Origin: an uncultured Bacteroidales bacterium
GTDB lineage: Bacteria > Bacteroidota > Bacteroidia > Bacteroidales > UBA932
Length of the DNA stretch: 38,101 bases
Assembly: GCA_947630665.1 (NCBI GenBank)
Contig: CANRID010000024.1
Location: 1 to 38,101, forward strand
Direction of reading: 5' to 3'
The translations under genes were made by a program, and so were the position numbers. Below are positions 3,774 to 33,439 of this stretch, piece by piece. How positions within the stretch are numbered: position 1 is the stretch's first letter; every line of letters starts with the position of its first letter. The notes beneath the pieces were generated by a model, which was not told the DNA's origin, did no database searches, and saw nothing but the letters and a program-made list of their open reading frames with translations.

Positions 3774-3851
3774 CAGTCAAGATGAAAATAAGGGAAAGGC
3801 TTCAGATCTGTATCCCGACAGTTTTAAGAGGCCTGCCCAAAAGCGATTTTT

Positions 3852-3880
3852 TCGGTTGCAATTTTTCTGATTGCAGCCGA
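3852..3880. terminator. Hairpin between convergent glsB-like gene and mdh
   Basis: An 11-bp stem (TCGGTTGCAAT at 3852-3862 with ATTGCAGCCGA at 3870-3880, one G-U pair) with a 7-nt loop lies between two convergent genes. It is preceded by TTTTTT on the left, and followed by a T-rich run on the right, so it could end transcripts arriving from either side. The T-tract on the plus strand is interrupted, which lowers confidence. Confidence 0.45.
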
Positions 3881-4023
3881 TTCCTTTATTTTGCCCGCCG
3901 GAGCTTTTGACTTTGTCTCCGGTCCTATGCGGCCATAAACGTCCACATCCAAGTCTCCTATGCGGTTGTTAAGACCGGATCCTGAGTGTTTGTAACTAAA
4001 CTGCTAAATCCATTCCGCCGATT

Positions 4024-5025
4024 TCAGCGTATGTGCGGATTCAGCTCGTTCCATCGGTTCACAGGAGGGAGGATCTCCATAGCGATCACCTCGTCCCGCA
4101 GTTTGCATAAATGACTGTAGCTCTCTTCCAGGTCTTTTTGCTCTGCAGGCGTGCCGGCGGGTTCTTTATAGGAAATGCCGTTTTCAGAAATGGATGTCTC
4201 CATGGCCATCATAATATGATTGTATTTTCCTTGAGATACATACACTCCTGCCGGCCAGCGGAAAGGCCGTCCTCCCATGGCAGCCGCTATCATTTCAACG
4301 GATAAATAAGCCGGACTCTGGAAAGAAGAGCGTCCGCGCAGCTCGATAATGTGCTTCCCTCCCTGGATCACTCTTTGTCTGAGGTCGTCCCAATCTTGCC
4401 GGGGCATTTTCTCGGTACCGATCAATTCATTCAGAGGCGTACCGTCTATCGTGGTGGTGGAAGCGAATACGGCCATTTGTTCCCCGTGTCCTCCGTAGGT
4501 GCGGCTATTGAGGATCTTATCTGTCGGGACTTTGAAATATTTGGCCAGTTCGGTCTGCAGGCGGGTGCTGTCGAGCGCGGCCAAAGTAGAAACCTGCGAT
4601 GGCTTCAGACCGGAATAAAGCAGAACGATCAGTCCGGTAATGTCGGCCGGGTTGAAAATGACCGTTACATGTTTTACATCGGGGCAATAGGTACGGATAT
4701 CTTTTCCTAATTGCATGGCGATCTGTGCGTTGCCTTTAAGCAGGTCTTCCCGTGTCATGCCTGCTTTCCTGGCAGCTCCGCCGGAAGATATGATATAGGA
4801 GGCTCCCGACAGGGCTTCTTCGATATCGGAGGTAAAGGTGATATTGGCCCCTTCGAAGCCGCAATGGAACAATTCTTCGGCGACTCCTTCCAATGCCGGA
4901 GCGAATGGGTCGTACAGGCAGATATTGGGAGTCAGTTTCATCATCAGGGCGGTTTGCGCCATATTGGAGCCGATCATGCCGGCGGCTCCTACGATTGTCA
5001 GTTTGTCTTGGGTTGAATATTTCAT
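4024..5025 (-). CDS. mdh: Malate dehydrogenase
   Basis: 333 residues, the full length of the Bacteroidales form. It interconverts malate and oxaloacetate with NAD(H) in the cytoplasm; in these fermenters it normally runs toward malate, feeding fumarate and succinate formation. The dinucleotide-binding loop GAAGMIG is at residues 13-19, substrate-binding arginines are in GGAARKAGMTRED (R86, R92), the D152/R155 pair is in ALDSTR, and the catalytic histidine is H180 in TYGGHGEQM. It is the last gene of a minus-strand series, 107 bp after the EamA gene, so it may also have its own promoter; TATATTCG on the minus strand at 5056-5063 is a one-mismatch -7 candidate. Confidence 0.95.
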   Translation of the reverse strand: MKYSTQDKLTIVGAAGMIGSNMAQTALMMKLTPNICLYDPFAPALEGVAEELFHCGFEGANITFTSDIEEALSGASYIISSGGAARKAGMTREDLLKGNAQIAMQLGKDIRTYCPDVKHVTVIFNPADITGLIVLLYSGLKPSQVSTLAALDSTRLQTELAKYFKVPTDKILNSRTYGGHGEQMAVFASTTTIDGTPLNELIGTEKMPRQDWDDLRQRVIQGGKHIIELRGRSSFQSPAYLSVEMIAAAMGGRPFRWPAGVYVSQGKYNHIMMAMETSISENGISYKEPAGTPAEQKDLEESYSHLCKLRDEVIAMEILPPVNRWNELNPHIR

Positions 5026-5132
5026 ATCAGTTTTGTTTTACAATGATACGGGTACGAATATAAGGATTTTTCCTGAAAGCCCGTTCACCCGGGAAGAATT
5101 ATATTCGATAACGGGAAGTGGTGCCGGCTTCC

Positions 5133-6068
5133 TTATATGCCCTTATCGCCTTTGGAGGGCGGTCTTTCGCTTGTTTTCCGCTGGGCGAGAATCACCAGGA
5201 AAACCGCCACGAATATCAGCGCCATACCCGCGCCCTGAGGCAAATCGAGCCTCTCGCCGAAGAAAATGATGCCCATGATGACGGCGGTAAGGGGTTCCAT
5301 GCAGCCTAATATGGCCGTGGTGGTGGAACCGATCATATGAATGGCATAAATAAGGGTCAAATCGGAAATGAGCGTGGGCAGCAAAGCCAGCGCAAGGGCA
5401 TTCGCCCAGGCCCCTCCGTCGGGAAGCATATCGAAACGGGCTCCCTTTACGAGAATATTGCACAGAAAAATAAATGCCGAATCCACCAGTACGTAAAAGG
5501 TCATTTTCATCCCGTTTATATGATTGATTGCGGGGGTTTTATTGACTCCTACGATATAGGAGGCATAGGTAAAGACCGTCAGGAGTACCATGAGCAATCC
5601 TTTTAAGGGAATCGCTCCGGCAGCGTCCGCAGACGTGCTTCCCGTCCATCCTCCGCACAGGAAATAGACGCCCGCTATGGCCAGTATGATGGCGGATATT
5701 TTTTCCCCGGATACTTTTTCCCGGAAAAAGAGGATCATGAAGACAGCTACCAGTACGGGATATAAAAAGTGGATGGTGGTAGCTATGCCGCTGGGAATAT
5801 ACTGATAGGACCCGGTCAGGAACATGGAGGTGGCCGCATAGAAGACGGTAAGGAAAAACAGGCTCACAAATTCCCTGAAAGTCACTTTAAGACTGATTTT
5901 CTTGATCGTGAGGAAGATGCCCATTATAAGGGCGGAAAAGAAAAACCGGTAGAAACATACCGAATCCAACCCCACTCCGTTCTTCAGAAGAGGAATGGAA
6001 AACAACGGAATGAATCCGAAGGTGGCGGAGGATATGATAGCCAGCAAAAGCCCCTTGAATTTTTTCAT
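5133..6068 (-). CDS. EamA/DMT-family transporter
   Basis: 311 residues from the ATG at 6068; a TTG three codons upstream would extend it slightly. About ten hydrophobic helices in two EamA-type halves (roughly 1-140 and 160-300). Conserved features include a helix-1 GFIPLFS/YRFFFSA region and the second-half motif STTTAILGCMEPLTAVIMGIIFFGE characteristic of drug/metabolite exporters. Substrate is not predictable; family members export amino acids, nucleobases or other metabolites across the inner membrane. It lies 48 bp downstream of the DUF3298 lipoprotein gene and upstream of mdh on the same strand. Confidence 0.88.
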   Translation of the reverse strand: MKKFKGLLLAIISSATFGFIPLFSIPLLKNGVGLDSVCFYRFFFSALIMGIFLTIKKISLKVTFREFVSLFFLTVFYAATSMFLTGSYQYIPSGIATTIHFLYPVLVAVFMILFFREKVSGEKISAIILAIAGVYFLCGGWTGSTSADAAGAIPLKGLLMVLLTVFTYASYIVGVNKTPAINHINGMKMTFYVLVDSAFIFLCNILVKGARFDMLPDGGAWANALALALLPTLISDLTLIYAIHMIGSTTTAILGCMEPLTAVIMGIIFFGERLDLPQGAGMALIFVAVFLVILAQRKTSERPPSKGDKGI

Positions 6069-6116: not shown

Positions 6117-6821
6117 TTATATCCCGACAGGAAAATCTTTTATCTCCAGAAAATCTTTCAATTCGGTTGCCGGTACATTTATTTCCACCGGACCGCAGGC
6201 GTATGCGCCCAGAATATACTGGTCATAGGTGAACGTTACGTACTCCGGAGTAATGTTTATGGCCGTAGCGGATTCTACGGTAGGTTTCTCCGTAAAACAC
6301 CCGTCGGGATCCTGGAAATATTCTTCCAGCAGCCGGTCGATTTGTGCGGTGCATTCGGGTTTGAAAAGCGACTTTTTATCTAATTGCTTTTCGGCGGAGA
6401 TGTCGTAGTTGTAACTGTAGAAACAGGTCATCCCGTGCGCTCCACCCGTAAAGGTATATACCATATAGCGCAGGCTCACGAAATTATCGGCGGCCATGAA
6501 AACGGAGTCCTTGATATACAGCTCGTATTTCATTTCGGGAGGCAGATAGGGTTTGGTTTCGAGAGCTTCTTCCCTGAATTTCGCGATGGTATCGTTCAGG
6601 CCTCTTTCGATCTCCTGATTGTACCCCTCTAACAGGGCGTTTATTTTATGGGAGTCCGAGTGTATCAATATATAATCGGCCTCTACGATGGAAGCGCTGT
6701 CGGAAAGCCGGATGGCTTTTTCCGTGGTATATACTTCGGCGCGTCTGGCGCATCCGCAGAGCAGTGTGGCCAGCAGAAGGACAAGAAAGGCAAGTCCGGA
6801 AGAGGATGAATAATGTCTCAT
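6117..6821 (-). CDS. Lipoprotein with DUF4163/DUF3298 (RsiV-like) domains
   Basis: 234 residues from the ATG at 6821. A hydrophobic signal (about 9-22) ends in the lipobox-like LCGC with C24 as the probable lipidated cysteine, so the protein should be anchored in the envelope. The body resembles the PdaC/RsiV-type DUF4163 plus DUF3298 pair: the hallmark TGGAHGMT stretch near residue 115-125 is followed by a long C-terminal half ending with an F-T-Y-D-x-Y pattern and a G-P-V-E segment. Some relatives bind lysozyme or act in peptidoglycan deacetylases, but no catalytic domain is seen here. A TTG start at 6887 would bury the signal and is rejected. It follows the S9D peptidase by 71 bp on the same strand. 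Confidence 0.75.
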   Translation of the reverse strand: MRHYSSSSGLAFLVLLLATLLCGCARRAEVYTTEKAIRLSDSASIVEADYILIHSDSHKINALLEGYNQEIERGLNDTIAKFREEALETKPYLPPEMKYELYIKDSVFMAADNFVSLRYMVYTFTGGAHGMTCFYSYNYDISAEKQLDKKSLFKPECTAQIDRLLEEYFQDPDGCFTEKPTVESATAINITPEYVTFTYDQYILGAYACGPVEINVPATELKDFLEIKDFPVGI

Positions 6822-6892
6822 TTTCAGTAATGTTAGTAAAAACTGTTTATTTTCTGTTTCGATTCGTCTCGATTGTTGTCGTGTCAATTGTT

Positions 6893-9478
6893 CTATTCGC
6901 GGTCCGGTTCGTCGTCTTGGTCCGGTCCGGCTTTTTGGGCGGGCTGTCTGTTCTTGACATATTTATCCAAGTGCTGGTAGGTTTCCCATCCTAACTGGAG
7001 CAGGTTTTCCTTAGTAGAGTAGCCGTGGCTTTCGTATGGCAGCAATACTAACCTGACCGTTCCGCCGTTGCCCTGAATGGCGGCGTACAACCGGATGCTT
7101 TGTATGGTGAAAGTCCCGGGATTGTTATCGTCCAGACCATGAACCAGCAGAATCGGACTCTTTATTTTGTCGGCATAGGCAAACGGGGACATCTCCATAT
7201 AAACGTTTTTGGCCTTCCAAAAGTTCCGGCTTTCATTTTGAAATCCGAATGGGGTCAGTGTACGGTTATAAGCGCCGCTTCTGGCGATTCCCGCAGCGAA
7301 GAGATCCGAGTGGGCCAGCAGGTTGGCCGTCATGAATGCCCCATAGGAATGGCCTCCCACTGCTACGCGCGTAGAATCCCCGATTCCCATGTCCGCTACT
7401 TTCTTGATGGCTGCTTTGGCGTTGTTTACCAGATCTTTGATATAATTGTCGTTTGGCTGCACCTTTTCGCTGCCGATAATCGGGAAAGAGGCGTCGTTCA
7501 ATACCGCATATCCCATAGGAACGATCATCAGTATGGAAGAGCGGCTGATAGTCGTATATTTGTTGGGCGAGTCTTTTCTCTGTTGGGCGAGTTCTTTGTC
7601 GCGATATTCCGCAGGGTAGGCCCAGATAAAAAGCGGCAGCGGTTCTTCACCCTTGTAATCGGCCGGAGTATAAAGCGTCCCCCGGAGCAGTACGGAGTCT
7701 TCGCGATAATATTCGACCGTTTGTTTTTTTATGTTGCGGACGAGAGACTCTATCGGAGATCGGAAGGAAGTGAGCCGGATGTCTTTTTTGCCGAAATCTT
7801 CCAAAAGAAGATAGTTCGGAAATTCTTCCTGGCTTTCCCGCTTGGTAATGAATATGCCTTTTTTCAGATCGAGGAATTCCACAGGCTCTTCATAATAAGG
7901 GTCCCGACAGCTCCACACCGTAGTAAAAAGTTTCTTTTTCAGATTGTAGCGGGTAATATACGGATAGGCTCCGGCGGCTGAATATCCCGGGTTGCTGAAA
8001 TATATGGTGGCATATTTGTCCGGAGAATAGACCGTTTCATTGCCGTATTTGTTGGGCATGGTTACCGGTGTTCCCGCAGATGCGTACAGGTCTCTGGATT
8101 TTACGCTGTATATCAGATCGAGGGAGGATGTCTTTACTAATCCTAAGGTATCGCCCTCGTAGCGAGGCCGCGAGGTATTCGTAAAGTCCTTTACGAAATA
8201 CAGTTCGTCTTTTTTCTCTTTTTCATTGGTAACCGATACGAATATATTCAGGGAGTCGCACCAATGAATCCGGCGGATGTTAAAGTCCGGATAAAAAATG
8301 GCCTGAGCCTGAGTATCGAAAGGAGCGTTCCATTCCATAATCTTTTTATAGGTCTTGGTTTTCGGTTTTTTCCCTTTGGGACTCTTGTCGCCGCTTGTGT
8401 CTTTTGCCGCGGAATCCGCAGCGACTTTATAGCTTTCGTACCAATATAAGGAAGCTGCCTTGTCGGGACGCCAGGCGAAACCGCTTCTTTTTTCCTTATC
8501 ATCTTTGTTACCGTTGCCCACGGAAAGTCCTTTGGTAATGATGGTATCTATTTTTTCCCCGTTTTTATTCCACAGCTCCAGTGAATTGGGAAATTGGTTA
8601 TATCCTACCTGGTAGGAGTACGGCCTGTAGACGTAACGCACGAGCATGTATTTTCCGTCGGGAGAATAGCTGTAATAAGTATAAACGGCGTCTTTCCCTA
8701 TTTTTTTGACGGTGCCATCCGGCGAAACGGTCGCTATGGATGATGTAGCATAATAATCGAACAGATATTCATCGTATTTATCCGTCAGCAGATCCTGATA
8801 GGTGCGTACGCCTCCTTTTTGGCCGGAGCTTTCCTGAATGGTCGGAGTTGCCGGAAATTCTTTGCCCCGGGCTTTGGGAGACAGGGGACGGTCCTCGGGA
8901 ATCAGGGGTACGGTTACCGATTTACTGTCGGGAGTCCATTGGAAAAGATTGGGACCGAAAAATAAATTCAGCTTCCGGTCCGAACACCGGTGTGCAGTGC
9001 CGGAATTTACGTCCGCTATCCATAAATAAACTCCGTCCGCCTCCTCTATGGCTGCTGCCAGATAATTACCGTCGGGAGACCATTTGCAGTGAAGGATTCT
9101 GACATCTTCGCCAAATCCCCGGATAATGCCCTGGAATCCGTTTTGGCCAGGAAGATTTTTAATCTCTATCTGAGTAATGACGGATTTGACCAATGGGCTG
9201 TTAGTGGAGACGAGTACCCGCTGGCCGGCCAGTCTGACATCTTCCCTGGATTGTTCTTGGTTGGTAGGAAGGTCGTTTATACTGAAAACCGCGAATTTGT
9301 TTTTCAAGGGAGAAAAGGAAACTGTGGGGATGGCCGGAGCCAGAATGATGTCCTCCATTTGTTTGGGCGGAATCTTGTAACCTTGTTCCCCAGTGTCCGT
9401 TTGCGCCTGGATAAGGCCGGTTCCCCCGGACAATAAGAGTGTCAGAAATAGGATGCCGATGAGTCTCAGAGTTTTCAT
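6893..9478 (-). CDS. S9 family peptidase, glutamyl-endopeptidase-like (S9D)
   Basis: 861 residues. A Sec signal peptide (about 1-25, ending near IQAQ) is revealed by starting at the ATG at 9478 rather than at an upstream non-ATG codon. Several WD/PD40-like segments with S-P-D-G-x-Y signatures (around residues 134, 251, 271) form the N-terminal propeller of a prolyl-oligopeptidase fold. The C-terminal alpha/beta hydrolase carries Ser711 in GGHSYGAF, Asp784 in HGLDDNNPGT and His818 in YESHGYS. The LFIWAYPAEYRDK segment (about 617-629) with the following SPNKY is the signature I associate with chloroplast glutamyl endopeptidase, placing it in S9D. Role: extracytoplasmic peptide degradation. It is the first gene of a minus-strand series and diverges from perR. 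Confidence 0.88.
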   Translation of the reverse strand: MKTLRLIGILFLTLLLSGGTGLIQAQTDTGEQGYKIPPKQMEDIILAPAIPTVSFSPLKNKFAVFSINDLPTNQEQSREDVRLAGQRVLVSTNSPLVKSVITQIEIKNLPGQNGFQGIIRGFGEDVRILHCKWSPDGNYLAAAIEEADGVYLWIADVNSGTAHRCSDRKLNLFFGPNLFQWTPDSKSVTVPLIPEDRPLSPKARGKEFPATPTIQESSGQKGGVRTYQDLLTDKYDEYLFDYYATSSIATVSPDGTVKKIGKDAVYTYYSYSPDGKYMLVRYVYRPYSYQVGYNQFPNSLELWNKNGEKIDTIITKGLSVGNGNKDDKEKRSGFAWRPDKAASLYWYESYKVAADSAAKDTSGDKSPKGKKPKTKTYKKIMEWNAPFDTQAQAIFYPDFNIRRIHWCDSLNIFVSVTNEKEKKDELYFVKDFTNTSRPRYEGDTLGLVKTSSLDLIYSVKSRDLYASAGTPVTMPNKYGNETVYSPDKYATIYFSNPGYSAAGAYPYITRYNLKKKLFTTVWSCRDPYYEEPVEFLDLKKGIFITKRESQEEFPNYLLLEDFGKKDIRLTSFRSPIESLVRNIKKQTVEYYREDSVLLRGTLYTPADYKGEEPLPLFIWAYPAEYRDKELAQQRKDSPNKYTTISRSSILMIVPMGYAVLNDASFPIIGSEKVQPNDNYIKDLVNNAKAAIKKVADMGIGDSTRVAVGGHSYGAFMTANLLAHSDLFAAGIARSGAYNRTLTPFGFQNESRNFWKAKNVYMEMSPFAYADKIKSPILLVHGLDDNNPGTFTIQSIRLYAAIQGNGGTVRLVLLPYESHGYSTKENLLQLGWETYQHLDKYVKNRQPAQKAGPDQDDEPDRE

Positions 9479-9632
9479 GTTCGGAATATTGACGGTTATT
9501 ATAATGAAATATTCAATAAGTGTGGTATCATGCAGGCTGCATTTGTCCGCAGCCACGGCTGGGCCGGCCGTTACAAATTTACAATAAAATTCCGAATGCA
9601 AAATACTGTCGGGAGTAATTTATTTAAAAATA

Positions 9633-9664
9633 TTTGTAAATAATAATTATTATAAATAACTTTG
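9633..9664 (+). promoter_or_regulatory. perR-rbr promoter (-33/-7)
   Basis: TTTG at 9633-9636 and TAACTTTG at 9657-9664 are separated by exactly 20 bp, an ideal match to the Bacteroidetes promoter consensus TTTG-N19-21-TAnnTTTG. The -7 box ends 18 bases before the perR start codon, giving a short leader. A PerR-box-like palindrome fills the spacer. Confidence 0.85.
9641..9655. promoter_or_regulatory. PerR-box-like operator
   Basis: The 15 bases TAATAATTATTATAA match the Bacillus subtilis PerR box TTATAATnATTATAA at all but one fixed position, and contain a perfect 14-bp palindrome overlapping it (9640-9653 region). The site lies between the -33 and -7 elements of the promoter that drives perR itself, the expected place for an autorepressing metal-dependent regulator. 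The surrounding DNA is AT-rich, which raises the chance of a random match. Confidence 0.6.
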
Positions 9665-9682
9665 CCCTGAAATAACAAGGAT

Positions 9683-10114
9683 ATGCAAAATATAAAGGAA
9701 AAAATCCAGAAAGGCGGGTTGAAAGCTACTCCTCAGCGGATAGCGGTTTATAGTACTCTGTTGAAACTGGGGCATGCTTCGGCCGATATGGTGGGAGAGG
9801 AGGTTAAAGAGGTTTTTCCTTCGCTGACTGTCGCTACCATTTATAATGTATTGGAATCGTTTGTGCGGGCGGGTCTGGTAGTGCGCAGATTCAGTTCGAA
9901 CAATAAAATGTATTTCGATGTCAATACCTACGAACATGCCCATCTGTATGATAAGGACATGAACACATATTTAGACTATGACGACCCCGGACTGATCCGG
10001 TTAGTGACCGAATACTTGAAATCCAAAGAAATACCTGATTTCAATCTGACCGATATAGATATTCAGCTCATAGGCACTTTCAAGGAAAGACAACAACATA
10101 TTCTGAAAAAATAA
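9683..10114 (+). CDS. perR: PerR-type Fur-family peroxide regulator lacking structural-zinc cysteines
   Basis: 143 residues. The N-terminal winged helix (about 8-70) has the T-P-Q-R and V-A-T-I-Y-N recognition-helix motifs of Fur proteins. The regulatory metal site of B. subtilis PerR (H37, D85, H91, H93, D104) aligns at a constant offset of six with H31, D79, H85, H87 and D98 here. D98 instead of Glu favours PerR over Fur. The protein contains no cysteine at all: the four structural-zinc positions are Asp90, Met93, Ile130 and Phe133. The rubrerythrin gene follows after 23 bp, and a PerR-box-like site lies in the shared promoter, so the likely role is peroxide-responsive repression of this pair. 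The target list beyond these genes cannot be read from here. Confidence 0.88.
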   Translation: MQNIKEKIQKGGLKATPQRIAVYSTLLKLGHASADMVGEEVKEVFPSLTVATIYNVLESFVRAGLVVRRFSSNNKMYFDVNTYEHAHLYDKDMNTYLDYDDPGLIRLVTEYLKSKEIPDFNLTDIDIQLIGTFKERQQHILKK

Positions 10115-10137
10115 ACATTTATTAAACATTTACAGTT

Positions 10138-10713
10138 ATGAAAAGTATAAAAGGAACAAAAACAGAAAAAAATCTGTTGAAAGCGTTTGCCGGCGAATCA
10201 CAGGCAAGAACCCGTTATGCCTTTTTTGCCAGCGCAGCCAAAAAAGAGGGTTTTGAACAGATTGCAGGCGTATTTACCGAAACTGCCGATCAGGAAAAGG
10301 AACATGCGAAAGTATTTTTTAAATATTTGGAAGGCGGCATGGTAGAAATTACCGCCGAATATCCTGCCGGTAAAATAAGCAGTACCGAGGAAAATCTGCG
10401 GAATGCCGCTGCGGGAGAAAATGAAGAATGGGACATTTTGTATCCGAACTTCGCCGAAGAAGCCGAAAAGGAAGGATTCATGGAGGTGGCTGCCAGCTTT
10501 AGAAATATCGCCAAGGTGGAAGCGGAACATGAAAAGAGATATCGGACTTTGCTGGAAAGAGTGCAGTCCGGCACCGTATTCAGCAGAGAAAGTGAAATAG
10601 AATGGCAATGCCGTAACTGCGGATTCGTATTCAAAGGAACCGCGGCTCCTGAGATCTGCCCGTCCTGCAAACATCCGCAGGCCTATTTCGAACCGATGAA
10701 ACGCAATTATTGA
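10138..10713 (+). CDS. rbr: Rubrerythrin
   Basis: 191 residues, the standard length. Residues 1-145 are the ferritin-like diiron domain with ligands in the E-S-Q-A-R motif (E20), D-Q-E-K-E-H (near E52-H56) and the second E-A-E-K-E / E-A-E-H-E pair (about 119 and 124-135). The C-terminal rubredoxin-like domain has two Cys pairs, CRNC and CPSC, that bind one iron. The enzyme reduces hydrogen peroxide to water in the cytoplasm using electrons relayed through the rubredoxin centre, a main peroxide defence in anaerobes. It is the second gene of the perR pair and should be induced when PerR is oxidised. Confidence 0.96.
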
Positions 10714-10717
10714 TAAA

Positions 10718-10778
10718 AACGGGGACTTCCCGTTGTACGACAAGCCCCCGGAAAGTGCTGCTCTCCGAGGGTTTTCTT
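10718..10778 (+). terminator. Terminator after rbr
   Basis: Two hairpins in a row follow the rbr stop codon. The first is AACGGG/CCCGTT (10718-10723 with 10729-10734). The second pairs CCCCCGGA (10745-10752) with TCCGAGGG (10764-10771), one mismatch, and is followed directly by TTTTCTT. The second is the likely rho-independent terminator of perR-rbr. Confidence 0.6.
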
Positions 10779-10835
10779 ATTTGTTAAGCCACAAGTTTGT
10801 CAAGTCGTTTTATTCCTGTCTCATTTATAAGTGCC

Positions 10836-11071
10836 TTATTTATAAATAAATGCTCTTTTGCCGTCCTCCGCGTTATAAGAGCTTGTCATGCTTTTGTCTC
10901 CGGGGTAAATCCTGTTTTCCCGATAGGAGACGAGATAATGATCCCCCTCGTTAATCACTTTTTGACCGTAACCATGGCAAGAGACCTGTACCGGTAGGTC
11001 CTTATCGCATGATTGGAGAAACGGGGAAAGCAATTAACAAGGGGGAAAAGGAGCCGTTTTAATTTTTTCAT
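10836..11071 (-). pseudogene. Frameshifted small lipoprotein gene
   Basis: An ATG at 11071 opens a frame beginning MKKLKRLLFPLV, a textbook signal-peptide start. Nearby, in the frame shifted by one base insertion or two base loss, reading runs L-L-S-P-F-L-Q-S-C-D-K-D and then about 53 more residues to the stop at 10836. Joining the two across 11034-11037 gives a signal peptide ending in the lipobox-like LQSC, with a mature domain of about 57 residues rich in Tyr, Gly and charged residues. The second frame alone would need a TTG start and lack the basic n-region. I do not recognise the family. The break may be a real mutation or an assembly error. Confidence 0.35.
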
Positions 11072-11287
11072 CGTTCATGGAATTGAGTTAATTTTATCTA
11101 TTTATTGGGTATTCGTATGATAAACGTCGTATAGGCATGAATACTGCATGCGTCCGGTAAATTTTTTTTGATTTTCCCGGGTAGCCCGGATCGATATTGT
11201 TTGAAAGACGGCGTTTTTCCAAAATAATGTCTTCGGGATGCAGTATTTGCCGGATCGGTGCATTTATAAAATTATAATAGATAAAGG
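11072..11287. other. Gap upstream of the ECF sigma gene
   Basis: Together with 10779-10835 this is the rest of a 574-bp interval between rbr and the sigma gene. Apart from the rbr terminator and the broken lipoprotein I see no gene. No exact TAnnTTTG element with a -33 box lies before the sigma start; the ECF gene may be read from a promoter recognised by its own sigma factor, whose sequence I cannot identify. AAAGG directly before the ATG at 11288 is a modest ribosome site. Confidence 0.4.
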
Positions 11288-11839
11288 ATGGAGGAAAGAG
11301 AACTCTCAGAACGTTGTAAAAAGGGAGACAATGTCGCCAGGAAATTGCTCTATGAGGATTTTTCCGGGCGGCTGTTTTCCATTTGCCTGCGTTATCTGGG
11401 CGACTATCCTGCTGCCGAGGATCTGCTGCATGACGTATTTCTGAAAATATTCCGCTCGTTCGATAAATATACATGGCGGGGAAACGGTTCGCTTCGGGCG
11501 TGGTTAGAGCGGGTAACGGTAAATGCGTCATTGGAATATCTGAGAAAAAACAGGACTTCCATACTCCCGGTTCCTCTGGACGAGGAAGGTTTGCAGGAGT
11601 ATGAGTCTCCCGACGATTCTTTCGTGAGCAGGATCCCCCCGGGGGAACTGATGAAGTTTGTAATGGATCTTCCTTACGGATACCGCACGGTGTTTAATTT
11701 ATACGTGTTCGAAGAAAAATCGCATCGGGAGATCGCGCAGATATTGGGAATCAACGAGAAATCTTCTTCATCCCAATTATTCCGGGCCAAACGGATTCTG
11801 GCCGGGAAAATAAAAGCGTATATCAAGGAGCAGGAGTAA
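11288..11839 (+). CDS. ECF-family RNA polymerase sigma factor
   Basis: 183 residues, typical of sigma-70 ECF proteins. Region 2 spans about residues 10-78, with the -10-melting segment around D-L-L-H-D-V-F-L-K-I-F and the following aromatic/basic stretch. Region 4 spans about 118-178 with the H-R-E-I-A-Q-I-L-G-I helix-turn-helix that reads the -35 box. It redirects RNA polymerase to a small stress or envelope regulon. The next gene starts one base after the stop codon, so the two should be co-translated, and that gene encodes the likely cognate anti-sigma factor. Confidence 0.93.
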   Translation: MEERELSERCKKGDNVARKLLYEDFSGRLFSICLRYLGDYPAAEDLLHDVFLKIFRSFDKYTWRGNGSLRAWLERVTVNASLEYLRKNRTSILPVPLDEEGLQEYESPDDSFVSRIPPGELMKFVMDLPYGYRTVFNLYVFEEKSHREIAQILGINEKSSSSQLFRAKRILAGKIKAYIKEQE

Positions 11840-11840
11840 T

Positions 11841-13193: not shown

Positions 13194-13214
13194 AGAAAAA
13201 AATCTCTATATTTG
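13182..13214 (+). promoter_or_regulatory. Promoter of the nucleoside-recognition-domain gene
   Basis: TATATTTG at 13207-13214 matches the -7 consensus exactly; CTTG at 13182-13185 is a one-mismatch -33 box at a 21-bp spacing. Only 11 bases separate the -7 box from the ATG at 13226, so the transcript would have almost no leader. Confidence 0.6.
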
Positions 13215-24117: not shown

Positions 24118-25064
24118 AAACGGGCCAGCATGTTTTTAACGTTAGTTTCTATTCTTTCGTAGGCATTGTCCGTATATTCGGCCGGCTCGAATTTCGTGCC
24201 GGTGATGTTTTCGTACAATTCTATATAACGGTCGGAAATGCTTTTTACGCGGGCATCATCCATTTCCGGCACTTTCTGCCCTTTTTGGCCGCTGAAATTA
24301 TTTTCCATGAGCCATTCCCGGACGAATTCTTTGGAAAGCTGTTTTTGCTGTTCCCCCTTGTCGAATCTCTCCTGATAACCGTCGGCATAAAAATACCGGC
24401 TGGAATCGGGTGTGTGGATCTCGTCGATGAGGTAAATGTCCCCGTCTTTCAGACCGAACTCGTATTTGGTGTCCACCAGAATGAGCCCCCGTTCCGCTGC
24501 TATTTGCGTGCCTCTTTCGAAAAGGGCCAAGGAATATTCTTCCAGTTTGTTATATACGTCTTCTGGCACTAATTTCCGGCGGATGATTTCTTCGCGGGAA
24601 ATATCCTGATCGTGACCTCCGATTTCCGCTTTGGTGGTCGGGGTAACAATCGGCTTGTCGAATTTCTGGTGCTCCCGCATTCCGTCGGGAATTTTTACTC
24701 CGCATATCTCTCTTGCTCCGGCTTTATAGGCTCTCCAGGAACTTCCTGTCAGATATCCCCTGACGATCATTTCCACCGGAAGCGAATCGCATTTGTACCC
24801 TACGGTTACCATCGGGTCGGGAGAGGCTATTTTCCAGTTTTTTACGATATCGGAGGTGCTGTCCAGAAATTTCGAGGCGATCTGGTTCAATACCTGTCCT
24901 TTATAAGGTATGCCCTTAGGCAATACTACATCGAATGCGGAAATGCGGTCGGTTGCAACCATGACCAGATATTTGTTCGCTATGGTATATACGTCTCTTA
25001 CTTTGCCGACGTATTTGGCGGTTTGATTAGGAAATGCGAATTCCGTACGGGTGATAGATTTCAT
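24114..25064 (-). CDS. purC: Phosphoribosylaminoimidazole-succinocarboxamide synthase
   Basis: 316 residues. The family motifs are clear: G-K-V-R-D-V-Y at about 20-26, D-R-I-S-A-F-D-V near 39-46, the [13 protein letters not shown] segment near 98-110, and the late L-V-D-T-K-Y-E-F-G plus [13 protein letters not shown] pair. It condenses CAIR with aspartate using ATP to give SAICAR in purine synthesis. Length and sequence fit the longer, yeast-like Ade1 form used by Bacteroidetes. It overlaps the LysM gene by four bases and follows the glycosyltransferase gene by 113 bp; I see no riboswitch or exact promoter in that gap. Confidence 0.96.
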
Positions 25065-25177: not shown

Positions 25178-26329
25178 TTATAAAGTCCGGTAAAATTCCA
25201 TTAGCTTATTGCAAAAATTGCTCCACGAAAGCCTGTCTTTTTCCCGGATGATATTTTTTATCATTTCATTCCTCGCCGTTTCTCCGCCCGATCTGCCCTC
25301 CGGAGCCGGAGCATCCCCAAAGTAAATGCGGATAGCCGATGCGACCGCATCCGGGTCGGGCCGATCCACGATCATGCCGGTGCCTCTGTCTCCGATGGTC
25401 TCTTTAAGGCCTCCTGCAGCGGTGGTAATCATCGGGACTTCAAAATGATAGGCCACCGAGCTGACGCCGCTTTGGGTGGCTGAGCGGTAAGGCAATACGC
25501 ACACGTGGGCGGCGGAAAAATAAATCCCTACCCGGCTGTCGGGAATATAATGGGTCGTCAGGTAAATATTCTCCTTCAACGGCGATTCGTCGATCAGCTT
25601 CCTGTACTTCTCGAAACTCCCGTAAGGTTCTCCTGCTATGATCAGTTGGTAGGAGGAATCGAGCTGGGAGAACGCTTCTATGAGGATATCCAATCCTTTA
25701 TATTCCCGGATAAGTCCGAAGAACAGAATGTTTTTCTTGTTTTTTTGTATCCCGATGGTTTTTTCGGCCTCTTCTCTTTCGAGCTTCCGCCCGAAATGGG
25801 AATAGAGCGGATGAGGAATATTCAGATAACGCGCCCGGGGCATAAAACTGAGCAAATCGTTTTTGACCGCATCGCACAATACGATGTATCCGTCATGGGG
25901 CTTTAGAAAATAGCGGGTGAACGGCCGGTCGAAAAAGCGGGGCTCGTGCGGAATGACATTATCTAAGATGGAGATGATTTTGCAGTTTTCATTCATGTGC
26001 CGGGCCACGTATCCCAAGGACGGGGCGAAATAGCTCATCCAGTAACGCATCACCAACAGATCCGGTCCCCAGTTTCGGATAGCCTTAGCCGTGGATACAT
26101 ACGAAAAAGGATTTGCCGTATCCAGCAGGGCTTCGGCCTGCACGGGTACGGCATTGTCTTCCGGAGTCACATATTGTGTTTTTCCCGGGAACAGCAGATT
26201 GGGATATTGGCGCTTGAAATTGAACGCCTTGACGGTATGCCGCTTGCCGAGTTCCTCCAGCAGGCAGGCATTGAACTGCGAAATTCCCCCTCTGTACGGG
26301 TAAAAACACGATAATATTGCGATCTTCAA
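25178..26329 (-). CDS. GT4-family glycosyltransferase
   Basis: 383 residues with a GT-B fold. The N-terminal half opens with K-I-A-I-L-S-C-F-Y-P-Y-R-G-G-I-S-Q, the usual glycine-rich acceptor-side loop. The C-terminal half has F-F-G-L-I-R-E-Y-K-G-L-D (about 206-217) and P-Y-R-S-A-T-Q-S-G-V-x(n)-E (about 285-300), the GT4 donor-binding region with the first Glu of the E-x7-E motif replaced. No signal or membrane helix, so it likely works at the cytoplasmic face. Donor and acceptor cannot be told. It is isolated from any polysaccharide cluster, 9 bp after the Skp-like lipoprotein gene, which suggests a house-keeping envelope role. Confidence 0.85.
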   Translation of the reverse strand: MKIAILSCFYPYRGGISQFNACLLEELGKRHTVKAFNFKRQYPNLLFPGKTQYVTPEDNAVPVQAEALLDTANPFSYVSTAKAIRNWGPDLLVMRYWMSYFAPSLGYVARHMNENCKIISILDNVIPHEPRFFDRPFTRYFLKPHDGYIVLCDAVKNDLLSFMPRARYLNIPHPLYSHFGRKLEREEAEKTIGIQKNKKNILFFGLIREYKGLDILIEAFSQLDSSYQLIIAGEPYGSFEKYRKLIDESPLKENIYLTTHYIPDSRVGIYFSAAHVCVLPYRSATQSGVSSVAYHFEVPMITTAAGGLKETIGDRGTGMIVDRPDPDAVASAIRIYFGDAPAPEGRSGGETARNEMIKNIIREKDRLSWSNFCNKLMEFYRTL

Positions 26330-26982: not shown

Positions 26983-27735
26983 TCATTGAATTTCATTTGA
27001 AACGGACAAATATAGAAAAAAATCGGATAACTCCCTGCGGTAAGCCTGAATTGTATTCTCCAGACCCAGATATAAGGCGTCGCATATAAGGGCATGTCCG
27101 ATGGAAACTTCCGATAGCCCGGGGATATTGCGGTTGAAATATCTCAGGTTGTCCAGGTTCAGGTCATGACCGGCATTCAATCCCAATCCGCACCGGACGG
27201 CTTCTTCGGCGGCTTTTACATAAGGCTCGATAGCCGCTTCCCGGTTGCAGGCGTATTTTTTCGCATAACTTTCCGTATAAAGTTCCACCCGGTCGCAGCC
27301 GGTGTCCGCCGCGTTCTTTATCATTTCGGGAACGGGATCGATAAAGATGGAAACCCGTATTCCGTTTTCCTTGAAAGTCTTGCAGATATTTTTAAGGAAA
27401 GTCTTGTTTTTAACGGTATCCCATCCTGCATTGGAAGTGAGGGCATCGGCCGCATCGGGCACTAAAGTTACCTGGGCCGGTCTGACTTTCAGCACCAGTT
27501 CCGTAAAGGCGGGAACGGGATTCCCTTCTATATTGAACTCGGTGGTAAGCACGGGTTTGAGTTCCAGTACGTCCCGATAGCGGATATGCCGCTGGTCCGG
27601 GCGGGGATGCACCGTTATCCCCTGGGCTCCGAATCTTTCGCAATCCAGCGCCGCTTTTATTACATCGGGCAGATTGCCTCCCCGGGCGTTGCGCAGGGTC
27701 GCTATTTTATTGATGTTAACGCTTAAAGTGGTCAT
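26983..27735 (-). CDS. pdxJ: Pyridoxine 5'-phosphate synthase
   Basis: 250 residues from the ATG at 27735. The TIM-barrel enzyme closes the pyridoxine ring from 1-deoxyxylulose-5-phosphate and aminoacetone phosphate. Catalytic H43 ([10 protein letters not shown]), E66/E70 (T-T-E-F-N-I-E-G) and a late His in L-N-A-G-H-D-L-N match the E. coli H45, E72, H193 set. The gene diverges from nadK; an exact -7 element lies upstream at 27801-27808. It appears to head a minus-strand series with the Skp-like lipoprotein, glycosyltransferase, purC and LysM genes. Confidence 0.96.
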
Positions 27736-27800
27736 AATAGAGGCCGATAAAAACCGTAATGAATGTTGTTTCTGTCGGGAAGACGGCTTCCTTCTTATGA

Positions 27801-27857: not shown

Positions 27858-28772
27858 ATGAAAATTGCCTTTTACGGGAGAAAAATAGATGCGTCTGATT
27901 TTGAAAAACTTTCCCTTCTGATTTCTAAATTGCACACAAGCGGAAAAGTACGGTTTTACTGGTACAGGCCGTTCTATGATTCTTTAAACGGCGGTGTAGG
28001 AGATATTCCCGCGGAGGGATTTTTTACCTCCCATGCGGACCTGCCTCGGGATACGGAACTGTTTTTGGCGTTGGGCGGAGACGGGACTTTTTTGGAATCC
28101 CTGACGTTAGTAAGGGACCGGAAGATTCCGGTTGCCGGAATCAATTTCGGACGGTTGGGCTTTCTGACTACCGCCTATGTGGAGGAAGGGGATGCCTGTC
28201 GGGAAAAATGCAATCTTTGGATCGACCGGCTGCTGAGGGGCGATTATGAAATAGAAAAACGCTCTCTGCTTCATCTGGAATGCCGGTCGGGAATCTTGCC
28301 GGAGGATTTTTACCCGTATGCGTTGAACGAAATCGCTATCCAACGGATCAGTCCCGTAATGATGGAAATAGAAATTGCCGTAGACGGGGATGTCCTTCCG
28401 CGTTATTGGGCGGATGGGATACTTATCGGAAGCGCGACCGGTTCCACGGCCTATTCGTTAAGCATCGGAGGTCCGATCGTGACCCCGGACTCCCGGGTGC
28501 TTATCATTGCTCCTGTCGCGCCCCATAATCTCAATATCAGACCTTTGATCGTTCCCGACAGCTCCCGTATAGAGATATCGTTCCGCAGCCGCCAGAGAAC
28601 CGGACTGCTCACGGCCGATAACCGGTCGTTCGATTTGCCGCAGGGGGAGCGGATAACGATTTCAAAGGCGTCTTTTGATCTGGATTGCGTTTCCGTCAAT
28701 AATAATTTCATCGAAGCTCTTCACCAGAAGCTTTTGTGGGGAGAAGACAGAAGGAATACGCCCAGAAGTTGA
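27858..28772 (+). CDS. nadK: NAD kinase
   Basis: 304 residues. The kinase signature GGDGTFLE is at 73-80, the N-E-I-A-I region near 158-162, and the glycine-rich G-S-A-T-G-S-T-A-Y-S-L-S-x-G-G-P segment near 193-210. It phosphorylates NAD to NADP, feeding the NADPH used by TrxB and GdhA encoded in the same window. It begins a plus-strand run (nadK, uppS, bamA, skp, skp) that is a familiar Bacteroidales order next to divergent pdxJ. Confidence 0.95.
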   Translation: MKIAFYGRKIDASDFEKLSLLISKLHTSGKVRFYWYRPFYDSLNGGVGDIPAEGFFTSHADLPRDTELFLALGGDGTFLESLTLVRDRKIPVAGINFGRLGFLTTAYVEEGDACREKCNLWIDRLLRGDYEIEKRSLLHLECRSGILPEDFYPYALNEIAIQRISPVMMEIEIAVDGDVLPRYWADGILIGSATGSTAYSLSIGGPIVTPDSRVLIIAPVAPHNLNIRPLIVPDSSRIEISFRSRQRTGLLTADNRSFDLPQGERITISKASFDLDCVSVNNNFIEALHQKLLWGEDRRNTPRS

Positions 28773-29619: not shown

Positions 29620-32142
29620 ATGAGGTTATTTAGAATACTTATTATTTTGGCATTGCTGGCGCCAGTACACCTTTTAGCCCAAAATGAGGATGGGCGTAAT
29701 AACGTTACCGTAGATTATACCAGTCCTAAAAAATATATCATCGGGGGTTTTGCCGTCAGCGGTATCAAATATCTGAGCGAAGACCAGATTCTTTCCATTA
29801 CCGGTCTCCAGAAAGGGGACGAGATTACCGTTCCGAGCGAGGAATTATCCCAAATGCTCAAACGTATATGGGCGCAGCGTTATTTTTCAGATGCCGGATT
29901 CTATATCGATTCCATAAATAATACGAAAGATACTATTATCTTGGGCCTTAGACTGATGGAGCGTCCGCGCGTTTCCAGATGGCAATTCAAGGGAATTAAG
30001 AAATCCGAGCAAACCGATTTGCAGGAAAGGCTCAAGTTCCGCCGGGGTATGGGATTGTCCGATTACATGGTTAAAAACTATATTGATCTCATTAAAAAAT
30101 ATTATGATGAAAAAGGGTTTCTCAAGACGGACGTGAATGTGCTGCAGGAGAATGATACGGTTATTAAAAATGCCGTGAGGGTGACTTTCAATGTCGAGAG
30201 GGGACCCAAGGTGAAGATCAAGAAGATTACCTTTCAGGGAAATGATAATGTAAAGAATTCCAAACTGGCCAAAGCCATGAAGAAAACCAAGGATATGCGG
30301 TTCGCGAATATCCTTAAAAGCAAGAAATTCAATAAAAAGGAATACGATAATGATAAGCAGAGCCTGATCCAGGCGTTTAACGAGGCAGGTTATCGGGACG
30401 CTGTGATTCTGAAAGATTCGATGTATTATATCGAACCCGACAGGCTGAGGCTGGATTTCGTATTCGATCAGGGGAAAAAATATTATTTCAGGGATATAAC
30501 CTGGACGGGAAATTCCATTTATGCCTCCGAACAGCTGAACGATGTCCTCCGGATCAAGAAGGGGGATGTATATGATGTGGTAACGATGCAGAAACGGTTG
30601 TTCGGAGATCCCAAGCAGCAGGATATGGATGTGAGACGGCTTTATACCGACAAGGGATATTTGTTTTTTGACCTGACTCCGGTAGAGCTGAATATCGAAG
30701 GGGATTCCGTGGATGTGGAAATGCGCATCCGGGAAGGCAAGCCCGCTACATTCAATAATGTGATAATAAACGGGAATACCATTACCAACGAGAAAGTGGC
30801 GCGGCGGGCTCTTTTCACCAGGCCCGGTTATCTTTACAGCCAGAGCGATTTTGAAAGATCCATGAGGGAACTGGCTTCCATCGGACATTTCGATCCCGAA
30901 AAAATCATGTCCGAGAGCGGATACAATCTTTTGCCTAATCCTATTAACAATACGGTGGATGTCGCCTATAACGTAGAGGAGAAGCCCAACAGCCAGCTCG
31001 AACTGTCGGGAGGATGGGGCGGAAATACTTTTGTGGGTACTGTCGGGTTGAGTTTCAATAACTTTTCCATTAAAAGAGTTTTCCAGAAGCATGCCTGGAG
31101 ACCCGTGCCGCTGGGGGACGGACAGTCGCTTTCCCTCCGGTTCCAGACCAACGGAACCTATTATACGGCTTTATCGGCAAGTTTCGTAGAGCCGTGGCTG
31201 TTCGGCAAGAAGCCCACTTCCCTGAGTTTGTCTCTCTATTATACGCGCCAGACTAATTCCTATTATTTCTATCAGAACTCCGACGAGTATATGGAAGTGT
31301 TCGGGGCGGCCGTCGGTATCGGTACGCGTTTGAAATGGCCCGATAACTATTTTGTGTTGTATAACGAAATAAGCTGGCAGACCTATAAATTGAAAAACTG
31401 GAATTATAATTTCCTGTTTAATACGGGACTGTCCAATAATTTCAGTTATAAGATTTCCTTGAACCGTAATTCCACGGACCAGCCGATCTATCCCCGTGGA
31501 GGTTCCGATATTATGCTGAGTGTGCAGCTGACTCCTCCGTATTCGCTTTTCCGGAAAAAGGATACGGATTACAAGAATATGCCGGACGAAAAGAAATATA
31601 AATGGATCGAATACCATAAGTGGACTTTCAAGAGCGCGGTATATACGAAGCTGATCGGGGATCTGGTGTTGAAGACGGCGGCCGATTTCGGCTATTTAGG
31701 ATATTACGACCGGAATCTGGGTTATTCTCCTTTCGAGGGTTTCCTGGTCGGCGGTGACGGAATGAGCGGTTATAATACATACGGATCGGAGATCATCGGT
31801 TTGCGCGGGTATCATAATAATACGCTTACGCCGATTATCGACAACGCGTATGCCGGTAACGTTTATGATAAGTTTACTGTGGAGCTGAGGTATCCGGTGG
31901 TATTGCAACCGCAGTCCACCATTTATGCGTTGCTGTTTTTGGAAGGTGGTAACTGTTGGTCGGATATCAAGAAGTTCAATCCGTTCTCTATCAAAAGATC
32001 GGCTGGCATAGGACTGCGCGTGATGCTTCCGATTGTCGGGATGCTGGGGATAGACTGGGGATATGGATTCGATCATGAAAATTCGGACGGATTCCTCAAG
32101 GGAGGCAGTAATTTCCACTTCGTAATAGGGCAGCAATTCTAA
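29620..32142 (+). CDS. bamA: Outer membrane protein assembly factor BamA
   Basis: 840 residues. A signal peptide (about 1-20, cut after LLA) is followed by POTRA domains over about residues 35-450; repeated patterns such as F-K-G-I-K, F-Q-G-N-D-N-V-K and W-T-G-N-S mark their strands. The 16-strand barrel occupies about 460-840, starting near G-G-W-G-G and ending in Q-Q-F with a terminal Phe. The loop-6 signature appears as G-L-R-G-Y. BamA is the essential insertase for beta-barrel proteins. With uppS before it and two Skp genes after it, the cluster couples outer-membrane protein delivery and insertion. Confidence 0.96.
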   Translation: MRLFRILIILALLAPVHLLAQNEDGRNNVTVDYTSPKKYIIGGFAVSGIKYLSEDQILSITGLQKGDEITVPSEELSQMLKRIWAQRYFSDAGFYIDSINNTKDTIILGLRLMERPRVSRWQFKGIKKSEQTDLQERLKFRRGMGLSDYMVKNYIDLIKKYYDEKGFLKTDVNVLQENDTVIKNAVRVTFNVERGPKVKIKKITFQGNDNVKNSKLAKAMKKTKDMRFANILKSKKFNKKEYDNDKQSLIQAFNEAGYRDAVILKDSMYYIEPDRLRLDFVFDQGKKYYFRDITWTGNSIYASEQLNDVLRIKKGDVYDVVTMQKRLFGDPKQQDMDVRRLYTDKGYLFFDLTPVELNIEGDSVDVEMRIREGKPATFNNVIINGNTITNEKVARRALFTRPGYLYSQSDFERSMRELASIGHFDPEKIMSESGYNLLPNPINNTVDVAYNVEEKPNSQLELSGGWGGNTFVGTVGLSFNNFSIKRVFQKHAWRPVPLGDGQSLSLRFQTNGTYYTALSASFVEPWLFGKKPTSLSLSLYYTRQTNSYYFYQNSDEYMEVFGAAVGIGTRLKWPDNYFVLYNEISWQTYKLKNWNYNFLFNTGLSNNFSYKISLNRNSTDQPIYPRGGSDIMLSVQLTPPYSLFRKKDTDYKNMPDEKKYKWIEYHKWTFKSAVYTKLIGDLVLKTAADFGYLGYYDRNLGYSPFEGFLVGGDGMSGYNTYGSEIIGLRGYHNNTLTPIIDNAYAGNVYDKFTVELRYPVVLQPQSTIYALLFLEGGNCWSDIKKFNPFSIKRSAGIGLRVMLPIVGMLGIDWGYGFDHENSDGFLKGGSNFHFVIGQQF

Positions 32143-32285
32143 ACGGAGGGGTCCGTGGAAGAGGTCATAAATCGTGTGCGTATATTGTTTCGGCGGGGGA
32201 GAGTCAACCGTTTTAACGGAAAAGATGTTGTATTGTTACCGGAATGTAAAAATTAAAAAGAAAGTTGGTTAAATATCAAAAGATT

Positions 32286-32795
32286 ATGAAAAGGTTTGTT
32301 TTATTGGTGCTGGCGGCCGTATTTTGTTCGCTGACACTGAGAGCCCAGAAAATCGGGTACATGAATACCGAGACCATATTATCTAAAATTCCTGAATATG
32401 CTGCGGCTCAAGAACAACTTGAAAAACTTAACGATCAATATAAATCGAGGATTGAAAACGATTATAAGGACATCGAGCGGCTCTATCAGAGCTATCAATC
32501 TTCCAAAGCTTCGCTCTCCGAGTATCAGAGGAGCCAGCGGGAATCCGAAATTATCAGCAAGGAGCGGGCGGTAAAGGAATTGCAGAAGACTTATTTCGGT
32601 CCCGACGGTTATATGCAGAAAAAAACGGAAGAGCTTTTGACTCCTATCCGGAATAAAGTGCAGGGTGCAATCGATAAAATTGCAAAAGAAGAGGGATTTA
32701 TGCTTATCTTTGATCTCGCAGCCCTCCAGGGAGTGGTGTATGATAACCCTCAGTACGACTTAAGTGCCAGAGTTTTAACAATATTGAACTATTAA
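32286..32795 (+). CDS. Skp/OmpH-family periplasmic chaperone (first copy)
   Basis: 169 residues from the ATG at 32286; an upstream start would add seven residues before the signal peptide. Signal residues 1-20 (ends L-R-A-Q). The mature protein has the Skp layout: strand K-I-G-Y-M-N-T-E, coiled coil about 40-115, closing strand F-M-L-I-F-D. It should form trimers that hold unfolded outer-membrane proteins in the periplasm before delivery to BamA. The 143-bp gap after bamA has no clear terminator. Confidence 0.92.
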   Translation: MKRFVLLVLAAVFCSLTLRAQKIGYMNTETILSKIPEYAAAQEQLEKLNDQYKSRIENDYKDIERLYQSYQSSKASLSEYQRSQRESEIISKERAVKELQKTYFGPDGYMQKKTEELLTPIRNKVQGAIDKIAKEEGFMLIFDLAALQGVVYDNPQYDLSARVLTILNY

Positions 32796-32823
32796 ATAAA
32801 AATCAATAAATTAAAATTTGAAT

Positions 32824-33381
32824 ATGAAAAACATTACAAGGGTTTTAGGAGTAGCTCTGATGCTGGTTTCCGCCCAATCATTCGCTCAAAATTTTAAATT
32901 CGGCCATGTGAATCTTCAGGAGCTGGTGGCATTGATGCCGGAAATGGATTCAGCCAATGTGAAACTGGAGAAATATGCCAAGGAACTGGATGAAACGATG
33001 GGAGGCATGCAATCCGAACTCCAGACTAAATTCGCCGATTATCAGCAGAAAAGCAGTACATGGACAGCCGCCATACTGGAGGCGAAGCAACGCGAATTGA
33101 ACGAGATGCAGCAACGTCTGTCGCAGTTCCAGGAAAACGCGAATCAGGAATATATGACTATGCGTAATTCTTTATATGCGCCTATCGTAAAGAAAGCAAG
33201 CGATGCTTTGGAGAAAATCGGAAAAGACAACGGTTTTACTTATATTTTCGATTTGTCTTCCGCCAGTATCCCGTATGTAAACGAGAGCGTAAGCGTGGAT
33301 GTAATGCCGATGGCCAAAAAGGCCCTTGATATTCCGGCGGATAAAAAATTACCGGTACCGCAGCAGGCTCAGGCCAATTAG
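32824..33381 (+). CDS. Skp/OmpH-family periplasmic chaperone (second copy)
   Basis: 185 residues from the ATG at 32824. Signal peptide about 1-21 (ends S-F-A-Q). Mature part: strand F-K-F-G-H-V-N-L-Q-E-L, a coiled coil about 45-120 rich in Gln, and closing strand F-T-Y-I-F-D-L, followed by a Pro/Gln-rich tail. The two adjacent copies have diverged clearly, so they are an old duplication and may serve different clients. A strong terminator ends the run 58 bp downstream; murI, which I recall following this cluster in many Bacteroidales, is not here. Confidence 0.92.
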   Translation: MKNITRVLGVALMLVSAQSFAQNFKFGHVNLQELVALMPEMDSANVKLEKYAKELDETMGGMQSELQTKFADYQQKSSTWTAAILEAKQRELNEMQQRLSQFQENANQEYMTMRNSLYAPIVKKASDALEKIGKDNGFTYIFDLSSASIPYVNESVSVDVMPMAKKALDIPADKKLPVPQQAQAN

Positions 33382-33439
33382 AGTTCCGCGGGCTGTCGGG
33401 AAAACAGCAACAGTGCCAGGTAAAAAAGAGTTAAAAGAG

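Follow-up and report, generated by a model that had tools for sequence, protein, structure and literature searches.

We analyzed a 38,101-nt stretch of DNA from an uncultured Bacteroidales bacterium (the whole stretch is called the window below) and found that the 9-mer CTGTCGGGA, scattered along it on both strands, is the dialect, in this genome, of a dispersed motif with the core RTCG, a GA one or two bases on and, in at least one species, A-rich flanks. The excess of the word outlasts two codon-preserving null models and is larger in noncoding DNA, which supports the motif being selected or driven as DNA. We lean toward reading it as an uptake-sequence-like signal of self-recognition that comes in dialects and would be served by putative nonpilus machinery.

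Exact copies of CTGTCGGGA number 17 in the window (11 on the plus strand and 6 on the minus strand), whereas dinucleotide shuffles predict 0.18 and an order-2 Markov model predicts 0.35. A preliminary description of the window had counted 16; its strong excess and its 11 plus-strand copies stand, while its 5 minus-strand copies are one too few. With genes called as the longest nonoverlapping open reading frames (ORFs) and not from curated annotation, 14 copies are coding and represent all six combinations of phase and orientation, as had been described. Three copies (3813, 9606, and 33393) are noncoding and not four as claimed, the copy at 6122 falling within the final codons of the ORF 6117–6887, just ahead of its stop.

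The same word is abundant across the genome. In the window's own assembly (G000; G-numbers denote the genomes compared and L-numbers pieces of DNA), which spans 2.24 Mb in 60 contigs and is 93% complete, CTGTCGGGA occurs 586 times (300 on the plus and 286 on the minus strand) vs. 21 times (15 and 6) for the reversed word. A second genome, G003, is a one-contig chromosome of 2.229 Mb with 717 exact copies. The tests below used a sample of G000 consisting of the window and 400 kb (438 kb) and a sample of 440 kb of G003. In the G000 sample, the one-mismatch neighbors in clear excess were transitions at positions 1–3, namely CCGTCGGGA (93 observed vs. 8.2 expected), TTGTCGGGA (66 vs. 6.0), and CTATCGGGA (44 vs. 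5.9), and positions 4–9 (TCGGGA) were almost strict, the top neighbor there, a T at position 9, reaching 8 vs. 2.2. The motif of the window's genome is written as YYRTCGGGA, and this family has 43 members in the window where 3.75 are expected. The abundance of CGTCGGGA, earlier put down to Pro-Asp codons, is better accounted for by a variant spelling of this motif, given the excess of CCGTCGGGA.

We compared the coding copies with two null models, a synonymous shuffle within each gene and a swap of codons preserving their junctions. The 102 coding copies of CTGTCGGGA in the G000 sample contrasted with null means of 5.0 and 5.7, respectively, and the 105 copies in the G003 sample with 2.6 and 1.6, such that the nulls account for 1.5 to 6% of the coding copies. 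The noncoding excess was ∼70-fold in the G000 sample (19 vs. 0.26 expected) and ∼390-fold in the G003 sample (39 vs. 0.10), and the density was higher in noncoding than in coding DNA in both, 0.51 vs. 0.25 per kb (2.0-fold) and 0.80 vs. 0.27 per kb (3.0-fold). With relaxed forms of the motif, the codon-swap null reached 16 of 251 coding copies in G003 and 10 of 69 in three genomes of the second dialect described below, and the noncoding and coding densities were 2.08 and 0.64 per kb (3.2-fold) and, based on 7 noncoding sites, 0.55 and 0.31 per kb (1.8-fold). An artifact of codons, dipeptides, or composition could draw on the skew of the coding exact copies to the sense strand (64:38 in G000 and 63:42 in G003) and on the relaxed motif of G000, for which the codon null has a mean of 72 out of 371; the two shuffles rule out a codon or dipeptide artifact for the exact word, and the size of the noncoding excess makes an explanation of this kind highly improbable. 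In the samples examined, the excess thus stays after codon correction and is present in intergenic DNA, in line with the preliminary description's proposal that the word is selected as DNA and not as protein.

In the G003 sample, the motif takes the form CTRTCG[GCT]GA and is flanked by A-tracts at positions −5 to −2 and +11 to +15. Among exact copies, the frequency of A is 0.69 at −2 and 0.50 to 0.71 at +11 to +15, and the tracts are also found at the 251 coding sites (0.62 at −2 and 0.65 at +14); the second dialect shows some downstream enrichment of A. The presence of A-tracts on both sides suggests that the motif is recognized in double-stranded DNA. Close pairs of copies are few, 20 in G003 and 10 in G000, and pairs of inverted repeats acting as terminators were rejected on these grounds. 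Ten of the G003 pairs are overlapping plus/minus pairs at an offset of 3 (CYRTCGCGAYRG-type dyads), with the dyad CTGTCGCGACAG present at 7 sampled places, giving 14 counts when both strands are read. After splitting the replichores by GC skew, relaxed copies in G003 were divided 175:158 between the G-rich and C-rich strands (52.6%, p = 0.38), and a split by local skew in G000 gave 215:197. The strand comparison suggested in the preliminary description thus revealed little replication-strand bias, also when the exact copies of G003 (85:59) are considered.

To place the motif among relatives, we surveyed 149 genomes from the family and 295 from the order, each set drawn evenly from a larger group, and the 39 genomes of the window's genus. 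A large excess of CTGTCGGGA was limited to the genus. An order-wide motif was rejected, no comparable excess being seen outside the genus in the 295 order genomes (the highest counts were 100 vs. 17 and 98 vs. 16), and two genera of the family, g19 and g20, showed a moderate excess (e.g., 140 vs. 16, 150 vs. 33, and 62 vs. 9). The first of these counts comes from G038 of genus g19 and is relative to the reversed word; in the same genome, the pieces L105–L108 (20.6 kb) contain 10 copies of GGGATGCA and 6 of TAGGGATGC, possibly a local repeat.

Within the genus, the motif exists in at least two dialects. The first, CYRTCGSGA, reached at least five times its control in 10 of the 39 genomes. The second, RTCGCYGAG, was found de novo in G157 and reached this level in 12 (9.5 to 18.7 times the control), with counts such as 964 vs. 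53 in G108, 858 vs. 46 in G157, and 895 vs. 65 in G097; it was not found in the window. Only G175 passed the fivefold level for both. At a threshold of 2.5 times the control, 17 genomes were classified as first dialect, 11 as second, 2 as both, and 9 as neither, both thresholds having been set after the counts were seen. The dialects share the core RTCG, followed by GA one or two bases on. Relatedness was gauged from RecN identity to the window alone and not from a tree, many identities referring to whichever of two matched pieces was larger, and G155 having no usable RecN. By this measure, the 15 genomes with at least 55% identity (the window's own included) comprise 11 of the first dialect and 4 of neither (G130, G045, G119, and G149), while second-dialect genomes are at 42 to 49% and five first-dialect genomes at 46 to 51%.

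Several observations were made alongside these. Small samples provided candidates for a third dialect in G027 (CYATCGC) and G162 (CYATCGGGA), and no convincing motif was seen in G045. RecN matches of 56 to 58% occur in the Bacteroidales metagenome-assembled genomes (MAGs) SIG158, SIG149, BRZ_KN bin87, and RGIG4631, which does not imply membership in the genus. L056 and L057, from the MAGs RUG12971 and Reindeer_2_mag_152, contain 14 and 16 copies of CATCGGCC in 17.6 kb, where ∼1.5 copies are expected, using each of the three phases on both strands; it is perhaps another dispersed word of the RTCG type in a different lineage of Bacteroidia, or may stem from codon usage in GC-rich genomes. GTGCGCTAC has 9 copies in L189 (G025) and AGCTACAC 15 copies in L180 (G013), perhaps as local repeats.

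Individual positions of the motif turn over. Between G000 and G003, which are 68% identical, 2 of the 51 aligned TCGGGA sites of G000 were kept, and between G074 and G130 (75% identity), 2 of 31 were kept, with control words at 0.17. Only the closest pair, G164 and G163 (78% identity), hints at extra conservation, with 8 of 21 sites kept in one direction and 8 of 13 in the other, in comparison with 0.29 for permutations of the letters and 0.22 for permutations bearing a CpG. The density of the motif is thus maintained while its positions shift.

The poorest 20-kb piece of G003, L080, has 3 relaxed sites (mean 15) and contains a cluster of capsule or exopolysaccharide type; the second poorest, L088, has 6 and contains NACHT- and KAP-type NTPases. 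L027 (10 sites), which together with L009 makes up the two poorest pieces of G000, encodes an N6 methylase with a type I specificity domain. Within L088, an 11-kb stretch (6384–17530) with a GC content of 0.306 lacks the relaxed motif and encodes a NACHT-like protein of 1,447 aa and a KAP NTPase, making it a possible defense island.

Genes of the kinds that the preliminary description had named for follow-up, AddAB/RecBCD and competence, are widespread in the genus. A PDDEXK_1 protein of AddB size, mostly ∼930 to 1,120 aa, which we infer to be AddB, the ComEC Competence domain, and DprA were each found in 38 of the 39 genomes; HHH_3 matched in all 39, and many genomes include a protein of ∼300 to 450 aa with two HHH matches. 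The Pfam match of PDDEXK_1 is whole in many genomes; in G003, G169, and most genomes of the second dialect, with the exception of G171 and G175, it covers the first ∼150 positions only, in some cases alongside a second piece, so the AddB-type protein differs between species groups. A second, weaker match is located a few kb away in some genomes. DUF5689, the family of an uptake gene of Riemerella, was found in 21 of 39. In Riemerella anatipestifer, also a member of Bacteroidota, natural transformation is reported to depend on ComEC, DprA, ComF, RecA, an HHH protein, a DUF1343 protein, and another two proteins with a predicted location at the cell envelope (PMC8459023).

Uptake sequences are established in Neisseriaceae (DNA uptake sequences [DUS]) and Pasteurellaceae (uptake signal sequences [USS]) according to the literature cited here. 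As described in the passages cited, neisserial DUS dialects have a conserved 3-nt core, differ in one case by a one-base insertion, are congruent with the core-genome tree, and form overlapping dyads in one species (PMC3630211); DUS show no general orientation bias (PMC2346458) and are rare in acquired DNA (PMC2397512). Likewise, USS have AT flanks and a spacing of ∼1 kb and are underrepresented within coding DNA as well as in new segments (PMC7811141). Judged against these accounts, our motif resembles DUS in its many short copies, tiny conserved core, dialect with a one-base insertion, overlapping dyads, and lack of a general orientation bias, and USS in its 9-bp core, AT-rich flanks, frequency of ∼1 per kb, and lower numbers in coding and perhaps also in newly acquired DNA. 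It differs from DUS in its sequence, its Bacteroidales host, and the absence of a pilus ATPase above the cutoff, and from USS in its sequence, its phylum, the same absence of a pilus ATPase, and having no bias to gene ends. A literature search of limited scope found no description of the motif, in agreement with the preliminary description, which knew of none for the group.

The combination of a massive, near strand-neutral excess, use of all frames, noncoding enrichment, A-rich flanks in one species, turnover, dialects with a shared core, and scarcity in two islands seems close to that of the published DUS and USS. This closeness, together with the weak orientation, at most, of our motif in comparison with the oriented Chi and KOPS (FtsK-orienting polar sequences), is why we prefer the uptake-like reading. 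From these patterns we infer a receptor, biased uptake, and drive. A candidate receptor in the cell envelope would bind free double-stranded DNA at the motif and favor the uptake of DNA from kin, after which an HHH (ComEA-like) protein, ComEC, and DprA would pass a strand to RecA. As fragments carrying the motif recombine again and again, its density could rise wherever the sequence tolerates it; a change of the receptor would let the motif drift to a new dialect, and a loss of uptake would let it decay.

Several results weigh against this interpretation. No protein of the 39 genomes matched PF00437, the pilus or secretion ATPase, above the cutoff, with weak partial matches in 31 and pilins and secretins left unsearched; therefore, the known route of DUS and USS is not in sight and a ComP-type pilin receptor is not expected, and we keep the motif apart from those systems. 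ComEC, DprA, and the HHH families also match in control genomes, such as Bacteroides ihuae, which makes them weak and nondiagnostic evidence, and the two ComEC proteins scanned, those of G169 and G163, consist of the Competence domain only, a form found, according to the cited part of one study, in known transformable strains (PMC6299819). DUF5689 was rejected as the receptor, the family being absent from G000 and G003. In G000, the flanks are weak, the codon-swap null of the relaxed motif reaches 72 of 371 coding copies, and this motif is only 1.3-fold denser in noncoding DNA (1.17 vs. 0.92 per kb); the G000 sites are kept in G003 no better than control words (0.04 vs. 0.08). In G003, more of the exact copies are on the G-rich strand (59%, p = 0.037). 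Even spacing is weak in G003, where gaps shorter than 300 bp are rarer than by chance (p = 0.008) and the coefficient of variation does not reach significance; in G000, neither even spacing nor a scarcity of such gaps is seen. We found no bias to gene ends, the intragenic quintiles being flat, unlike in the USS of Pasteurellaceae. Finally, the scarcity in islands is only suggestive because the motif-poor islands are low in GC, 4 of the 11 site gaps longer than 6 kb were annotated, and one of the others, L079, apparently lies in core genes like those of the window, as seen from its alignment to the window and its ORF sizes.

The preliminary description had offered a Chi, uptake, or segregation signal, of which uptake fits best. 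Chi is expected to show a strong leading-strand orientation, and KOPS are strongly oriented from origin to terminus. Our motif is like Chi of AddAB and RecBCD in being short, abundant, and accompanied by an AddB-type protein. As a Chi-like hotspot, it would be read single-stranded by AddAB during double-strand-break repair, halting degradation and loading RecA; the AddB-type protein in 38 of 39 genomes (AddA was not searched for), the 85:59 division of exact copies in G003, and the few copies in two variable islands would all fit. The near-equal division of relaxed copies, the two- to threefold higher density of exact copies in noncoding DNA, the A-tracts on both sides in G003, the differing dialects inside one genus, and an AddB-type protein also in genomes with neither motif in excess (G045, G119, and G149) make this unlikely, and Chi is disfavored. 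The motif resembles KOPS as a dispersed, nonpalindromic word, and we rejected a KOPS-like segregation signal, which is unsupported because there is little replication-strand bias (175:158 relaxed and 85:59 exact) and not the strong orientation of KOPS. The cyanobacterial HIP1 is likewise a highly iterated short word, although a palindrome, which CTGTCGGGA is not.

Two other alternatives were considered. A chromosome-wide site bound by a protein of the nucleoid, of condensation, or of segregation, with fast-evolving specificity, would agree with the hundreds of sites per chromosome, the extended motif with its A-tracts, and the 10 overlapping dyads; we think it improbable, as few individual positions persist (2 of 51 at 68% identity), the strong orientation that KOPS would need is not seen, and there is no evident reason for the absence of the motif from G045, G119, and G149. 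Any biased process would suffice for turnover and dialects, and since the receptor is only putative, another molecular drive with no link to uptake, such as biased gene conversion or motif-targeted mobile activity, could be at work. The copies, however, have in common just the core and A-rich flanks, lacking any longer repeat unit, and are thus unlike remnants of an element, and we regard this explanation, too, as unlikely. Favoring an uptake-like signal, we judge the fuller proposal, as derived from sequence, to be evenly poised: a sequence-specific system by which uncultured gut Bacteroidales would take up self DNA without type IV pili, with a candidate envelope receptor and at least two largely exclusive dialects in one genus (YYRTCGGGA/CTRTCGNGA and RTCGCYGAG), and with an origin independent of Neisseriaceae and Pasteurellaceae.

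Among the window's genes, those scanned are ordinary (recN, bamA, pdxJ, and those for NAD kinase, SAICAR synthetase, and glutamate dehydrogenase, among others), so the motif has no local explanation; no viral relatives were confirmed for the one window protein considered. The noncoding exact copies are located at 3813–3821 (−), 9606–9614 (+), with divergent ORFs on either side, and 33393–33401 (+). The malate/lactate dehydrogenase-like gene 4024–5025 carries an antisense copy at 4521–4529 (+) and a sense copy, read as Leu-Ser-Gly, at 4804–4812 (−); the S9 peptidase gene a sense copy at 7902–7910 (−) and an antisense copy at 8925–8933 (+); the ORF 22216–24117 an antisense copy at 23023–23031 (+) and a sense copy at 23392–23400 (−); and the NAD kinase gene a sense copy at 28196–28204 (+) and an antisense copy at 28553–28561 (−). 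Further sense copies are found in the ORF 13226–14191 (13260–13268, +), recN (18454–18462, +), and bamA (31003–31011, +), and further antisense copies in the glycosyltransferase gene (25536–25544, +) and pdxJ (27772–27780, +); the copy in the last codons of the ORF 6117–6887 spans 6122–6130 (−). Among the variants, CCGTCGGGA occurs on the plus strand at 2579–2587, 3127–3135, 3658–3666, 5416–5424, 6301–6309, 8655–8663, 9069–9077, 20725–20733, and 24682–24690 and on the minus strand at 2902–2910, 20007–20015, 32600–32608, and 37371–37379; TTGTCGGGA at 8460–8468 (+), 12144–12152 (−), 16237–16245 (−), 17259–17267 (+), and 32033–32041 (+); and CTATCGGGA at 10918–10926 (−), 11903–11911 (+), and 27572–27580 (−). 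The remaining variants are TCGTCGGGA at 11608–11616 (−), CCATCGGGA at 17962–17970 (−) and 25750–25758 (−), TCATCGGGA at 25429–25437 (+), and TTATCGGGA at 30390–30398 (+).

A preference for self DNA has already been reported in one species of Bacteroidota, Riemerella columbina, which prefers its own DNA; in the cited part of that work, a k-mer search in Riemerella and Flavobacterium listed A/T-rich words whose function was left open, with no convincing motif (PMC7965970). If the uptake-like reading holds, the receptor would be new. The motif would then be a third case of uptake sequences, in another phylum and apparently without pili, pointing to convergent evolution; it would mark recombination at the sequence level in uncultured gut bacteria, and its many dialects could be used for finding the receptor by covariation.

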